A stretch of 64,000 nt of DNA, from positions 62,001-126,000 of the forward strand of contig NZ_JAODIW010000009.1 in NCBI RefSeq assembly GCF_026586625.1, in the 5' to 3' direction. The notes beneath the pieces were generated by a model, which saw only the letters and a list, made by a program, of their open reading frames with translations, had not been told where the DNA came from and ran no database searches. Position numbers and translations under genes: made by a program. The stretch's first letter is position 1, and the number at the start of each line of letters is the position of its first letter. The DNA is from Halobium salinum. Lineage in GTDB: Archaea > Halobacteriota > Halobacteria > Halobacteriales > Haloferacaceae. Below are positions 11,700-17,410 of this stretch, piece after piece.

Positions 11700-12494
11700 T
11701 CAGATGGCCGTCCAGCCGCCGTCGACGTAGAACAGCTCCCCCGTCACGTAGCCGGCGTCCTCGCTCGCGAGGAAGAGCGTGGGACCGGCGCAGTCCTCGG
11801 GGAACCCGGCGCGCCCGAGCGGGACGGGTTTGATGAACCCCTCGCCGCCCTCGCCGGCCATCCGCTGGGCTTCCTCGGACCACCCCTCCTCGAACTCCGT
11901 GGCGATCTGGCCGGGGGCGACGGCGTTCACCCGGACCCCGTACTCGGCGAGTTCGAGGGCGGCGCCCCGGGTGAGCATCTTGATGGCGCCCTTCGTCGCG
12001 TCGTACTGCACCTGGTCGTGCTGGGCGTCCTCCGAGGAGATGGAGGCGACGTTGACGACGTTCCCCTCGACGCCGCGCTCGATCATGTCGTTCGCGGCGA
12101 CCTGCGTGCCGAAGAACATCCCCCGGACGTTGACGCCGTAGAGCTTGTCGAGGGCGTCGGGCGACACCGTCCGGAAATCCTCGGGGTGCTGGACGGCGGC
12201 GTTGTTCACGAGCACGTCGACGCCGCCGTACTCCCGCGCTTCGGTCATCAGGTTCTCGATGTCGTTGTAGTTCGAGAGGTCCGTCTCGACGTAGGCGGCG
12301 TCGCCGCCGGCCTCCTCGATTAGCTCGTGGGTGGTCAGCTCGGCGTCCTCGGCCTTCGGGTCCTCGCTGTGGTCGGCGACGAGGACGGTCGCGCCCGCCT
12401 CGCCGAACCGCGTGGCGATGGCGCGTCCGATGCCGCTCGACGCGCCCGTCACGATGACCGTGTCGCCGTCGAAGTCGAACCTTGTTGAACCCAT
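11700..12494 (-). CDS. Short-chain dehydrogenase/reductase (SDR)
   Basis: A classical SDR of 264 residues with the cofactor motif TGASSGIG near the N-terminus, NNAA, and the catalytic Ser-Tyr-Lys set in NVASISSEDAQ and YDATK. Length and C-terminal YVTGELFYVDGGW fit 3-oxoacyl reductase or sugar dehydrogenase types. The ATG at 12494 is preferred because upstream residues are basic and outside the family. No metabolic partner lies next to it, so the substrate cannot be named. Confidence 0.85.
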   Translation of the reverse strand: MGSTRFDFDGDTVIVTGASSGIGRAIATRFGEAGATVLVADHSEDPKAEDAELTTHELIEEAGGDAAYVETDLSNYNDIENLMTEAREYGGVDVLVNNAAVQHPEDFRTVSPDALDKLYGVNVRGMFFGTQVAANDMIERGVEGNVVNVASISSEDAQHDQVQYDATKGAIKMLTRGAALELAEYGVRVNAVAPGQIATEFEEGWSEEAQRMAGEGGEGFIKPVPLGRAGFPEDCAGPTLFLASEDAGYVTGELFYVDGGWTAI

Positions 12495-13029
12495 CTCGCC
12501 TCGGAGTGCACCCGTGAGCGGGTTACGCCTGACGGCCACCGACGACCGTCGACGGGAGCGTGCCGACGTCGGCGGCCGACACGATTAAATAGTGTGCCGT
12601 GGTAACATGTGTCGAGTCTCGGGTCGAGAGGCTCCGGCGTGAACCAGCGCCGATTTCCCGGGTGACGAACCGCGAGCGCACCACGAAGCCCCCATGCCTG
12701 CAGGCTTCGGACCGACGATGCAGCCCTTTTCGTCGGGGGCTTTTTGACGAACCCCTCACCGAGTCACAGCGAACGTCCGGAGTCACGGGTGTCTGCGGAG
12801 CTCCCCGGCCGCGATAACCACGGCAGCGTCCGGACCGTCCGTCGTATCCCCGTCCGTGCATCCGGTCCCGGGACGTCCGATACTCCGCCGTTCGTCGCAG
12901 GATACCGTCGTTCTCGTCCCCGTCCACTGCCCCCGAAACTGGTGCTCCGACGGTGACGTTTCACCCGTCGAACCGTCCTTCGGAACCGAACGCTCAGGGC
13001 ACACCCGGTGCCGAATGGTTCCGTTCGAC
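12495..13029. other. Intergenic region with structured-RNA candidate
   Basis: No protein gene is supported. It contains the hairpin group at 12684-12745 and an ATTAAAT patch near 12584-12590 that could be a promoter on either strand. Confidence 0.4.
12684..12745 (+). ncRNA. Candidate structured RNA with terminator-like end
   Basis: Two local hairpins, CGAAGCC/GGCTTCG (12684-12690 with 12703-12709) and CCGACGA/TCGTCGG (12712-12718 with 12730-12736), are followed by TTTTT at 12741-12745. A competing long-range stem, AGCCCCC/GGGGGCT (12687-12693 with 12735-12741), would exclude both and ends at the T run. Such alternative pairing is typical of attenuators or small RNAs. Nothing shows it is transcribed. 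Confidence 0.35.
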
Positions 13030-13911
13030 CTACTCCTCCCGCTCGTGCTCCCTGAGGTCCTTCGGCCGAACCACCCCCGGTCGACCCACCTCCAAGCGGT
13101 CGCCGATTCGGATCACCTCCGTCACACGCGGATACTCGTAGGACGCGAGGTCCTCGTGGAGGCTCTTGGGGTCCGCGCCCACCCCCTTCCACATGTCCCA
13201 GTGCACGGGCGCGAACCGCTCCAGTCCGAGTTGGTTCACCGCCTCCGCAATCCCCGCGCCGTCGTTGTACCACGTCGTGACCTGCGTCTCGGTCGGGTCG
13301 GCTTCGGTCTCGACGATCTTCCCCGTCGTGCCGAACGGGAGCACGCCGAGGTCGAGGTCGAACTCGTCGGCCACGTCTGCGAAGCCGTCCCACGGGCGCG
13401 TGTCGCCGCCGGCGAAGAACGTCCCGGAGTCGTGTTCGACGACGTACGTCACGGGCTCGACCGCGTCGGGGTCGTTCGCCCCGCGGACGTGGACCGTCAG
13501 GTCGCCGACCTCGAACGCGTCGCCCGGAGCGACCGTGTGCTTCCGGTCGTCGCTCACGTCCACGTCGCCGTCGTAGTCCGCGTCGGTGTACGACGCCTCG
13601 GGCGCGTAGAGGTCGGCCCCGAGGTCGTCGACCAGCGGGGCGAACGACGGCGGATGCATGTGGTCGATGTGTTCGTGGGTGACGAGAACGGCGTCGCAGT
13701 CGGTGGCGTCCGCCGGGTCCATCGGCACCGGAATCATCCGGACGATACGCGGCGGGTTCCCGTCGCCGAAGTACGGGTCGAGATACAGCGTCGCCTCCGC
13801 GGTGCGCAGGACGTACCCGTTGCAGCCGAGATACCAGACGGAGAGCCCCTCCGGTTCGCTCGCCTCTACCTCCCCGCGGACGAACCAGTCGCCCCAGGTG
13901 GCGTGTACCAT
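13030..13911 (-). CDS. UlaG-like metallo-beta-lactamase-fold hydrolase
   Basis: The product has 293 residues. The metal motif is HEHIDH (HxHxDH), and FFAGGDTRPWDG and FAPVHWDMW supply further ligands typical of UlaG-type proteins (L-ascorbate-6-phosphate lactonase group). A Zn- or Mn-dependent cytoplasmic hydrolase acting on a cyclic ester or phosphate is likely. No sugar transport genes adjoin it, so the ascorbate substrate should not be assumed. Confidence 0.85.
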   Translation of the reverse strand: MVHATWGDWFVRGEVEASEPEGLSVWYLGCNGYVLRTAEATLYLDPYFGDGNPPRIVRMIPVPMDPADATDCDAVLVTHEHIDHMHPPSFAPLVDDLGADLYAPEASYTDADYDGDVDVSDDRKHTVAPGDAFEVGDLTVHVRGANDPDAVEPVTYVVEHDSGTFFAGGDTRPWDGFADVADEFDLDLGVLPFGTTGKIVETEADPTETQVTTWYNDGAGIAEAVNQLGLERFAPVHWDMWKGVGADPKSLHEDLASYEYPRVTEVIRIGDRLEVGRPGVVRPKDLREHEREE

Positions 13912-13992: not shown

Positions 13993-15150
13993 TCAGGCGC
14001 CGGCGTCGACCCGACCCGTCGGGATGCCGGTCCACGCCGGTGGCGTGGCGGCGCCGAACCAGTTGTCCGCCACGTCGACGACGGTCGCGTCCCGGCCGAC
14101 GGCGTCGACGACCACGGCGTCGCCCGGCCGCCCCGGCCCCACGGGAGCGACCGCGTGGGCGAACCAGTTGTGGTCGACCCGTGAGCGAGTGAGGGGGACG
14201 CCGCGGACGACCACCGCCGACACCGGGCGGCCGTCGGCGCCGTAGGTCGCACGGAAGACGTTGTGGTGGACGTCGAGGTACCGGCCGGCCTGCCGGCCGA
14301 GCGCCGGGTGGACCTCCTCGCCGCGGTGCATGTCGACGACGTGTGCGTACGTCCGCGGCCCGAAGTAGCTGTTCAACAGCTCGTACCCCGCGTCACGGGC
14401 GCCGATACAGGCGACCGCGTGCCGGTTGCCGTCGGCGTAGAGAAACTGCAACAGCGCCTCGCCGTGGCGGACGACGACCCCGTAGCCCAACCCCGAGAGC
14501 GCGTTGTCGAGGAGCTGACAGTGGTGGACGTGCGTCCCGGACACCGTCCCGTCGCGGCCGACTTCGACGCCGGCGTGGCCCCACCCGCGGAGCAGACACC
14601 GGTCGACCTCGACCCGGCTCCCGACGACCCCGGCGCCGGCCGACTCCAGACGCCAGTCGTACGCCGTCGGTCCCGACAGTGGCCCCTCGATTCGGAGTCC
14701 CGTCAGTCGGCTTCCCGCTTCGAGTCGGAGCAGCGGGCGGGGGGAACGTCGCGTGAAGAGGCGGGCGCCCGGCCGTCCGCTCCCGCGGTCGGAGGCGAGC
14801 ACACAACGACGGGGGAGGCGGAGTCCCCGCTCCGCCGTACAGTCGACCTCGCAGTCGCCGTCGACCCAGAGGGTCTCGCCCGGTCGGAGCGCCCCGAGGG
14901 CCTCGCCGAGCGACCGCCCGTCACCGGGCTGGAGAACGTCGTCCGCGTCGTCCTGGCCGACCGACCCCCCGACCGGCCACACGCGGCCCCACAGTGGGCG
15001 GACCGAACCGGGCGGTCCCTGCAGTCGGCGCCCGCTCGTCCCGCCCACCCCGCCGACCCCGGGCAGGTCGCCGGCGCTCACCACACCGCCGCTCCGGCCG
15101 CGTCCGACGAGACCGACACCGACGACGCCGAGGAACCGACGCCTGTCCAT
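13993..15150 (-). CDS. Exported right-handed beta-helix protein, copy 1
   Basis: At 385 residues, it begins with MDRRRFLGVVG, a Tat-like double-arginine signal with a short hydrophobic stretch. From about residue 120 it has short repeating turns such as GLRIEGP, GVVGSRVEVDRCLLRGWGHA, GTHVHHCQLLDNALSGLGYG and GRYLDVHHNVFRATYG, typical of parallel beta-helix (PbH1) repeats in polysaccharide lyases and surface proteins. It is a clear paralogue of the next gene upstream. The start was set at the DRRRF motif. Catalytic activity is not demonstrable from sequence. Confidence 0.78.
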   Translation of the reverse strand: MDRRRFLGVVGVGLVGRGRSGGVVSAGDLPGVGGVGGTSGRRLQGPPGSVRPLWGRVWPVGGSVGQDDADDVLQPGDGRSLGEALGALRPGETLWVDGDCEVDCTAERGLRLPRRCVLASDRGSGRPGARLFTRRSPRPLLRLEAGSRLTGLRIEGPLSGPTAYDWRLESAGAGVVGSRVEVDRCLLRGWGHAGVEVGRDGTVSGTHVHHCQLLDNALSGLGYGVVVRHGEALLQFLYADGNRHAVACIGARDAGYELLNSYFGPRTYAHVVDMHRGEEVHPALGRQAGRYLDVHHNVFRATYGADGRPVSAVVVRGVPLTRSRVDHNWFAHAVAPVGPGRPGDAVVVDAVGRDATVVDVADNWFGAATPPAWTGIPTGRVDAGA

Positions 15151-15536
15151 GCTTCTCCTCGGCGCGGAGCACGCTTCACGACGGCGTAACCCCCCCGAAG
15201 CCACCCGGTGGAAACCACCCGGAGGGAATCGGCTTTCCAGCGCGTCACCCGCCTACCGACGGGGAGCCGACGCATCGACGGCGGGACGGGTCACCCGGTC
15301 GGTCGAGGGAGGGGTTTCGGCGGGTCGACGGCGCCGACCGCCCGCACCGCGGCCGTTACCGGTCGGCGACGAGGTGAGCCGACCCACCGGGGCTACCAGC
15401 CGGTGACCACGCTACGTCGCTCTCACGGCTCCACGCGGGGGGAACCACCGTACCGAGGTTACCCGCCCCGACGAAACCGCCGTATCGAGGGGCGGCGACG
15501 ACACCACCCGTCGTACTGAGGCTAGGTTCTGAGGTA
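15151..15536. other. Gap between the beta-helix paralogues with degenerate repeats
   Basis: No gene is seen. The left part is rich in CCACCGG-like words. The right part holds three related 16-base elements about 31-32 bases apart (15443-15521). Confidence 0.4.
15443..15521. repeat. Three degenerate direct repeats, 31-32 bp apart
   Basis: Units AACCACCGTACCGAGG (15443), AACCGCCGTATCGAGG (15475) and ACCCGTCGTACTGAGG (15506) match each other at 12-14 of 16 positions. They end just past the stop codon of beta-helix copy 2. They look like the remains of a short tandem array. Confidence 0.45.
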
Positions 15537-16904
15537 TCAGGCGGGTGTGGTCAGCGCGTTGGGGGGTCTGCGGCCGCCGAAGCGGTTGCCGTCGACGGCC
15601 ACGTCCGCCGCCCGGAGGTCCGGCACGGAGAAGTAGAACGCGTCGCCCGGGGCGCCGACCCCCGTCGGCGACGCCTCGTGGGCGAACCAGTTGTCGACGA
15701 CTCGGGCACCCTCGACGGGTCGGCCGCGGACGAACACGGCCGTCTGGGGCTCGCCGGTGGTCACCCGCCGCGTCGCGCGGAAGACGTTGTGGTGAACGTC
15801 GAGGTACCGGCCGGCCTGCGAGCCGCCGCGGCGCCCCGACTCGTCGCCGCTGTGCATGTCGACGGACTGGAGCACCGTCCGCGGGCCGAACACGTTGTAC
15901 CGCGCCTCGTAGCCCGCGTCGGCGTACCCCGAGCAGGCGACCCCGTGGCGGTTGTCGTCGAGGTAGTTGTGCTGGAACAGCGCCTCGCCGTGGAACAGCG
16001 CGGCGCCGTAGCCTAGGTCGGTCATGAGGTTGTCGACGAGGTCACAGCCGTGGACGTGCGCGCCCGACACCGGCCCGTCGCGGCCGATTTCGACGCCGGC
16101 GTGGCCCCAGCCGCGCAGGACACAGCGGTCGACTTCGACGCCGTCGCCGACGACCGCGACGCCGGTCCCTTCCCGGCGCCACGAGTAGGGGCCGAAGCTC
16201 GTCCGCGGCCCCTCGACTCGGAGCCCCGTCAGTCGGCTCCCATCGTCGAGACGGAACAGCGGGGCCGGGTCGTCCTCGACGACGATACGCGCGCCCGCGC
16301 CACCCGACCCGCCAGACTCGCTCGGTTCGCCCGAGCCGTCCGACTCGCCCGGTTCGCCCGCCAGGCTCGACCCGTCCGGCTCGACCGGCCCACCCGACGC
16401 GAGGGTCACGCCGGGCGGAACGCCCAGCCCCTCGTAGCCGGTCAGGTCGAGCGTCAGGTCGGCCGGGAGACGGACCACGTCTCCCGGACGGGCGCTCCGG
16501 AGGGCGACGACGAGGTCGGTCGCGGTGTCGACGACGACGCCCTCGCCGGGGTCGCGCGGGCCGACCGGCCACGACTCGTCGGCGTCGACGAGCGACTCGG
16601 GGTCGACGACACTGCGCACGCCGACGCTCGGGAACGCGTCGAGCACGTCCGGGAGCGGGTACGCGTATCCGGGGTCTACGTCGGCTCGGTTCGCTCCACC
16701 CGACTCCGCGGTGTCGACGCGTTCGGTGTCGTCGTCGCCGGCGGCGCCGCTGTCGGCGCTCGCGCCGTCGGAGGGGCGGTCGGCTCGCGACCCGTTCGGG
16801 GCGGCGGTCGTCTCTCGGTTCGATATCTCGCCTCGCGGCGGCGACCGACCGGCACAGCCGGCGACGCCCGCACCGAGGAGGGCGAGGAGGCGGCGTCGTC
16901 GCAC
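15537..16904 (-). CDS. Exported right-handed beta-helix protein, copy 2
   Basis: From a GTG start this encodes 455 residues. VRRRRLLALLGAGVAGC gives an arginine-rich lipoprotein signal with a lipobox cysteine at residue 17. A Ser/Gly/Asp-rich tether is followed by beta-helix turns matching copy 1: GLRVEGP, RCVLRGWGHAGVEIGRDG, GRYLDVHHNVFRAT. Two further Gly/Ser/Glu-rich inserts (about 185-215) are absent from copy 1. I chose the GTG because upstream in-frame residues are basic and proline-rich with no family match. It is probably a surface-bound polysaccharide-active or adhesive protein. Confidence 0.75.
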   Translation of the reverse strand: MRRRRLLALLGAGVAGCAGRSPPRGEISNRETTAAPNGSRADRPSDGASADSGAAGDDDTERVDTAESGGANRADVDPGYAYPLPDVLDAFPSVGVRSVVDPESLVDADESWPVGPRDPGEGVVVDTATDLVVALRSARPGDVVRLPADLTLDLTGYEGLGVPPGVTLASGGPVEPDGSSLAGEPGESDGSGEPSESGGSGGAGARIVVEDDPAPLFRLDDGSRLTGLRVEGPRTSFGPYSWRREGTGVAVVGDGVEVDRCVLRGWGHAGVEIGRDGPVSGAHVHGCDLVDNLMTDLGYGAALFHGEALFQHNYLDDNRHGVACSGYADAGYEARYNVFGPRTVLQSVDMHSGDESGRRGGSQAGRYLDVHHNVFRATRRVTTGEPQTAVFVRGRPVEGARVVDNWFAHEASPTGVGAPGDAFYFSVPDLRAADVAVDGNRFGGRRPPNALTTPA

Positions 16905-17131
16905 GCGCCCGCCTTTCGGGACCGGGGTGAAAGGAAATTGTACGGTACCGTGACTGTACGCTCGCGCTACTGGACGGGCGGGGCGAGCCTTCCGGCGGTA
17001 GGCCGCCCACCGCACGCCGTAAGCGGTCGTTTTCGTCCGGCCGAGGGGGACTCGGGAGCGAGGAGGGTCGTCGCGGTCCGGCGGCGTCGGCCGGTTCGCT
17101 GAAGCCGGCCGGTCGTGTATGCCGGGACGCA

Positions 17132-17410
17132 ATGTCAGCCGACTCCGACGAGGCACGCTTCGAGGTGTATCTCCACCCGGCGGAGGGTGGCCCGGAACTC
17201 GACTCTCCGCTCACGACCGACTACATCCACTACTACGAGTCCGGCGTCTGGCTCGACCACGCCGACGGCCAGGCGTTCTTCCCCTACGGGGAGGTCCGGA
17301 CCATCGTCGACCACGAAGAGGAGATGGGCGAGTACGCCGGCCGCGACGAGGGTGTGGAAGGCGAAGCGGAAGCCGAGGACGAGGTGGCCGAGGAAGACGA
17401 CGAGGAGTAG
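17132..17410 (+). CDS. Small acidic haloarchaeal protein
   Basis: The first two thirds of this 92-residue protein (FEVYLHPAEGG, DYIHYYESGVWLDHADGQAF, FPYGEVRTIVDHEEE) look like a compact beta domain, and the rest is an acidic Glu/Ala/Asp tail. I do not recognise the family. It is transcribed away from the beta-helix pair, with about 230 bases between them that contain the small palindrome ACGGTACCGT at 16942-16951. Confidence 0.65.
   Translation: MSADSDEARFEVYLHPAEGGPELDSPLTTDYIHYYESGVWLDHADGQAFFPYGEVRTIVDHEEEMGEYAGRDEGVEGEAEAEDEVAEEDDEE

Follow-up and report, generated by a model that had tools for sequence, protein, structure and literature searches.

A candidate plus-strand RNA element with competing stems and a T tract in a haloarchaeal intergenic gap

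Introduction

In bacterial terminator/antiterminator attenuators, one RNA can adopt alternative pairings, one of which ends in a T tract. A 62-base element in the haloarchaeal window studied here (the whole 64-kb stretch of DNA that was analysed) raises the question of whether similar pairing belongs to a functional RNA, to an ordinary terminator or to sequence that does nothing. A preliminary description had read the element as two 7-bp hairpins competing with a 7-bp long-range stem that runs into TTTTT, and had favored a stand-alone RNA over a leader. Our analysis presents it as a well-formed candidate whose function is putative and whose interpretation is partly supported. We give a probability of about 45% to the reading that the element forms the 3′ half of an RNA transcribed from the plus strand, about 130 nt long and reaching from approximately 12616 to the T5 tract, and that this RNA is a lineage-specific intergenic small RNA.

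Results

Genomic setting of the element

The element lies in a gene-free gap of 535 bases (12495–13029), in agreement with the more than 500 bases first described. The gap is bounded by two genes with Pfam support:

11700–12494, minus strand: short-chain dehydrogenase gene (Pfam PF13561, E 1.8e-54)
13030–13911, minus strand: metallo-beta-lactamase-fold hydrolase gene (Pfam PF12706, E 4.8e-14)

The element overlaps no gene on either strand of the gap. As had been claimed, no plus-strand gene lies directly downstream of it, and a leader is unlikely because the next gene, 13030–13911, has the opposite orientation. Of the possible translations of the gap, seven were compared with Pfam and gave no credible match. 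The sole match, at E 0.031 and under the cut-off, was to an animal channel domain and was taken as chance, and a pseudogene or small protein in the gap was set aside. Relatives of the hydrolase turned up at 29 loci of the named genome collection, every one of them haloarchaeal by title.

Farther along the window is an enolase-superfamily gene that resembles sugar-acid dehydratases and reached no NCBIfam equivalog at the cut-off. Two adjacent minus-strand frames, 13993–15204 and 15537–17156, are placed between the hydrolase and enolase-family genes, which adjoin each other in several relatives. The two frames are identical at 176 of 403 aligned positions (44%); neither matched NCBIfam and the longer one had no Pfam match. 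The pair looks as if an unnamed protein had been duplicated.

Architecture of the element

The pairing elements and the T tract are the following:

12684–12709, plus strand: hairpin A, 7 bp with a 12-nt loop, −10.1 kcal/mol alone
12712–12736, plus strand: hairpin B, 7 bp with an 11-nt loop, −11.3 kcal/mol alone
12686–12742, plus strand: long-range stem AAGCCCCC/GGGGGCTT, 8 bp, 12686–12693 with 12735–12742
12741–12745, plus strand: T5 tract, from its sequence a putative archaeal terminator, among 7 such tracts that the window contains

Direct reading places the arms of hairpin A, CGAAGCC and GGCTTCG, at 12684–12690 and 12703–12709, and those of hairpin B, CCGACGA and TCGTCGG, at 12712–12718 and 12730–12736, so that the two 7-bp hairpins of the preliminary description are borne out. 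The long-range stem and the T5 tract into which it runs are also present, but the stem measures 8 bp rather than 7. The first two bases of the tract double as the closing bases of this stem, and the tract sits in intergenic sequence with GAC directly after it. Pairing between the loops, CTGCA (12698–12702) with TGCAG (12719–12723), is feasible and by our estimate of a size that chance provides.

The element also contains nested inverted repeats and, by eye, a perfect 10-bp palindrome, GCCTGCAGGC, at 12696–12705. A 9-base direct repeat, TGACGAACC, is found on both sides of it (12663–12671 and 12745–12753) and possibly reflects chance or a target-site duplication. On the plus strand, a 17-codon frame (ATG..TGA, 12694–12747) is open and covers most of the element including the T tract; the 34-residue stretch that holds it matched no Pfam family, and is too short for this to be a strong test.

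Folding energies and exclusion between the folds

When the 62-base element was constrained to both hairpins, its predicted energy was −22.9 kcal/mol, and with the long stem it was −25.4 kcal/mol; the two states are thus close in energy. An intact hairpin B combined with a 7-bp outer stem reached −24.7 kcal/mol, compared with −25.4 kcal/mol for the best structure. The mutual exclusion originally proposed therefore stands for hairpin A against the long stem but not for hairpin B: in these predictions, strict exclusion of the long stem would hold for hairpin A only, hairpin B being compatible with the 7-bp form.

The fold energy over 65 nt gave a z of −2.0, with 6 of 200 shuffles equally stable. 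The 133-nt putative RNA was no more stable than its shuffles (z −0.54), and a slightly longer putative transcript gave a z of −0.90. Energy per se is only mildly unusual and makes a weaker argument than the pairing statistics. In predicted stepwise folding of the growing RNA, hairpin A was complete by the time the chain reached 12709, and hairpin B by the time it reached 12739. In predictions for the full RNA, the last bases paired with upstream sequence that starts near 12625, or remained free, depending on the assumed start.

Pairing and T tract compared with chance

The pairing was compared with dinucleotide shuffles of the 64-kb window, both strands included, in a test framed once the site was known. 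The strict setting asked for a stem of at least 7 bp running into T5. Across both strands of the window, only the tract of the element, among 7, had such a stem. At least one stem into T5 was seen in 10.6% of 1000 shuffles, a stem with one competing hairpin of at least 7 bp in 7 of the 1000 (0.7%), and a stem with two competing hairpins in none. The related haloarchaeal loci used for comparison numbered 89, in part drawn from the same genomes, and totaled 397,793 bases; of their 155 T5 tracts, one had a stem of at least 7 bp and none a competing hairpin.

Relaxing the stem to 6 bp while keeping T5 gave one competing hairpin in 3.3% of 150 shuffles and two in 0 of 150; with 6 bp and T4 the figures rose to 51% and 5.3%. 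The combination of pairing and T5 is unlikely to be due to chance at the strict setting, and the case is weaker at the laxer ones.

A putative promoter upstream of the element

A promoter matrix of 30 columns was built by expectation maximisation from 91 training regions that precede ATG starts in the window and in named haloarchaeal loci. The signals recovered, A at −35/−34, a T/A-rich box from −31 to −27 and A at −12/−11, agree with the BRE, TATA box and WW element reported for haloarchaea (PMC4983044). Applied to the gap, it pointed to two features:

12584–12591, either strand: ATTAAATA, putative TATA box usable both ways, the one AT-rich site that the gap contains
12616–12745, plus strand: putative RNA of about 130 nt, with start and end predicted from the promoter score and the T tract

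Four overlapping octamers in the gap have at least 7 of 8 positions A or T, and all cover ATTAAATA. The top score in the gap was on the plus strand, for a start at 12616, which is 125 nt ahead of the T tract; at 8.4 bits it falls within the top 0.04% of window positions and below the training-region median of 11.5. An equal or better score 60–200 nt upstream on the same strand is found for 4.3% of window positions, so that the promoter counts as support rather than proof. The runner-up (6.4 bits, start 12560) uses the same box on the minus strand and would serve the dehydrogenase gene. The preference for a stand-alone RNA over a leader fits these results, because the downstream gene is on the minus strand and the gap has its best-scoring promoter on the plus strand, but the RNA itself is still putative.

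The dehydrogenase gene of the window scores −1.3 bits right at its ATG, and its better candidate promoter starts 66 bases upstream, with a TATA-like box in common with the putative plus-strand RNA. Eight relatives were scored in the same way, L100, L102 and L103 being left out and some of the loci belonging to the training set; their promoters at the ATG reached 15.2–15.9 bits in four, 12.7 bits in two, and 5.4 and 1.7 bits in one each. The dehydrogenase gene of the window has no promoter at its ATG as strong as those seen in six of these eight.

Search for relatives of the element

In its own genome of 4.46 Mb the element is single copy, and the pattern AGCCCC..GGGGCTTTT matched there only the element. 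DNA homology searches of 60 relatives, the own genome included, returned nothing besides the element itself, and those of 170 genomes of the family (none other of the same genus) and 392 of the order, the own genome counted in both, returned no homologue. There was likewise no match among plasmids and phages in a distant BLAST search at E 1e-5, nothing besides the element for an exact 26-base pattern in genome contigs, and no match for two exact patterns in viral contigs; some of the collections may omit the window's own or very near records.

At E ≤ 1 the family search gave short matches in 166 of the 170 genomes. Seven were inspected, five of the best from the family outside the own genome (L034–L038) and both such matches from the order (L094, L095), and were rejected since all lay in stop-free stretches of 274–825 codons with gene-like translations. 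Among the 392 order genomes, the pattern AAGCCCC..GGGGCTTTTT hit, besides the element, a single site in each of two genomes that belong to one genus. Because these look-alikes share a reading frame and encode a near-identical cysteine-bearing protein, they are coding sequence and not relatives.

Rfam 15 gave no match at the gathering score in the window; in the gap, its one match, on the minus strand, scored 14.2 bits (E 0.84) where the cut-off is 70. ARAGORN predicted 0 tRNA or tmRNA genes in the window. As no sequence relative was found, covariation of either fold is beyond reach and no selection on structure can be demonstrated. The preliminary description had named lack of conservation of the paired bases as a refuting observation; with the sequence absent from the searched relatives, there is no aligned pair to which this could be applied, and the absence itself speaks weakly at best against a conserved function.

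The gap in related gene clusters

Of the 58 loci searched, 6 carry the enolase-family, hydrolase and dehydrogenase genes together. The spacing between the hydrolase and dehydrogenase matches is 89 bases in Haladaptatus (L063) and 54 in two Halococcus loci (L064, L065). It is 713, 548 and 2,200 bases in L004, L005 and L066 (Halogeometricum, inferred or named), which carry other sequence there; the gap differs among these three as if it tolerated insertions. In L007 the hydrolase gene is in reversed orientation. The element is absent from all seven of these gaps (L004, L005, L007, L063–L066). In L103, a similar stretch, GGGCTTTTTG, was recognized by eye immediately upstream of the ATG of the dehydrogenase homologue, behind another gene.

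Discussion

A proposed short transcript ending at the T tract

The product we favor would end at an ordinary haloarchaeal T-tract terminator and would be either a small RNA peculiar to the lineage or a plain short transcript. Transcription would start near 12616 from the TATA-like box on the plus strand, and the emerging RNA would fold hairpin A first and hairpin B second. Once the last bases were made, GGGGGCUUUUU could pair with AAGCCCCC, pair with the upstream stretch or remain free, and the haloarchaeal RNA polymerase would terminate at T5. The structures would most likely stabilise the 3′ end and aid termination, and the RNA would act in trans or as antisense of any read-through transcript from the hydrolase to the dehydrogenase gene. 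What the analysis shows is the sequence with its possible pairings and T tract, the statistics, and the absence of relatives from the collections searched; we infer promoter, transcript, termination and any regulatory role alike.

Work in Haloferax volcanii speaks for such a transcript. Among its mapped start sites, 395 of 4749 are listed as intergenic novel (PMC4983044, Table 1), and its small RNAs are reported to span 50–1,000 nt, 30% of them having a BRE and a TATA box (PMC5892119). In a reporter assay in the same species, termination reached 95% at a T stretch and 59% at a hairpin motif taken from a coding region (PMC7237163). Against our reading stand the lack of a homologue in the collections searched, the unremarkable stability of the 133-nt RNA, the sub-median and shared promoter, the lack of an Rfam match at the gathering score and the laxer shuffles.

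Alternative explanations

The main rival, which we regard as unlikely though a serious contender, is a plain terminator: the element would stop divergent or antisense plus-strand transcription ahead of the minus-strand hydrolase gene, and any RNA would be a by-product. The T5 tract is correctly oriented, the next gene being that of the hydrolase on the opposite strand; the TATA-like box has a score in either direction; a similar stretch precedes the dehydrogenase homologue of L103; and a T stretch was 95% effective in the Haloferax volcanii reporter (PMC7237163). Against it, the T tract alone would suffice, which leaves the extra hairpins unexplained, and a stem of at least 7 bp is an exception among the T5 tracts of the related loci. 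Ranking next, and more doubtful, is neutral young intergenic sequence without function, its pairing a product of chance or of a local duplication or inversion. The failure to find a homologue in the family and order genomes speaks for it, as do the pairing frequencies at 6 bp and T4 and the gap itself, which is the variable portion of a recurring gene cluster (54–89 bases in three relatives, 548–2,200 in three). The strict setting, at which none of the 1000 shuffles reproduced the two-hairpin site, speaks against it.

The remaining possibilities appear far weaker. It is very improbable that the element works at the DNA level, as inverted repeats bound by a regulator or as the remnant of a mobile element's end. 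The palindrome with its nested repeats, the flanking copies of TGACGAACC (12663, 12745) and the other sequence in the same gap of relatives would suit such an origin, but the element is single copy in its genome, matched no plasmid or phage at E 1e-5 and no viral sequence exactly, and by our estimate repeats this short are expected in 535 bases. Slighter still is the chance of a two-state archaeal terminator in which the fold decides between a stop at 12745, giving a short RNA, and read-through into a long RNA antisense to the hydrolase gene (13030–13911); if it were true, an RNA switch would tune neighbouring metabolic genes through antisense transcription. Least probable of all is an attenuator or riboswitch-like leader of a plus-strand gene, or expression of the 17-codon frame that contains most of the element. 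Two near-isoenergetic folds and an open frame argue for this, and the minus-strand orientation of the next gene, the absence of an Rfam match at the gathering score, the failure to find a relative and the lack of a Pfam family for the residues around the frame (a weak test at that length) argue against it.

Comparison with known systems

The element resembles bacterial attenuators in having alternative pairings, one of them into a T tract. It differs from them in that no gene follows on the same strand, the polymerase is archaeal and hairpin B and the outer stem can form together. To our knowledge a true two-state terminator would be unusual for archaea, and a limited literature search gave no haloarchaeal example. 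The attenuator logic of the preliminary description finds no support beyond the base pairing itself: there is no plus-strand gene to control, hairpin B can coexist with the outer stem, a T stretch gave 95% termination in the Haloferax volcanii reporter (PMC7237163), and no sequence relative was found in which covariation could decide between the folds.

A second comparison is with the intergenic small RNAs of Haloferax volcanii (PMC4983044, PMC5892119). The candidate shares with them its intergenic position, a predicted length of about 130 nt, a TATA-like box upstream and, by inference, the host family; it differs in being recognized here from its sequence alone, with no sequence relative found. 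If transcribed, it would be one more lineage-specific small RNA beside the many reported in haloarchaea.

A third comparison is with haloarchaeal T-stretch terminators, some of which are described with hairpins (PMC7237163): here, too, a T5 ends an intergenic element and hairpins lie just upstream. The T motif described as tested in vivo in that study is T5C, whereas the T5 of the element is followed by GAC, and the element further differs from these terminators by its two hairpins together with a long-range stem. If transcribed, it would also offer a compact test case for whether RNA hairpins add to T-tract termination in archaea.
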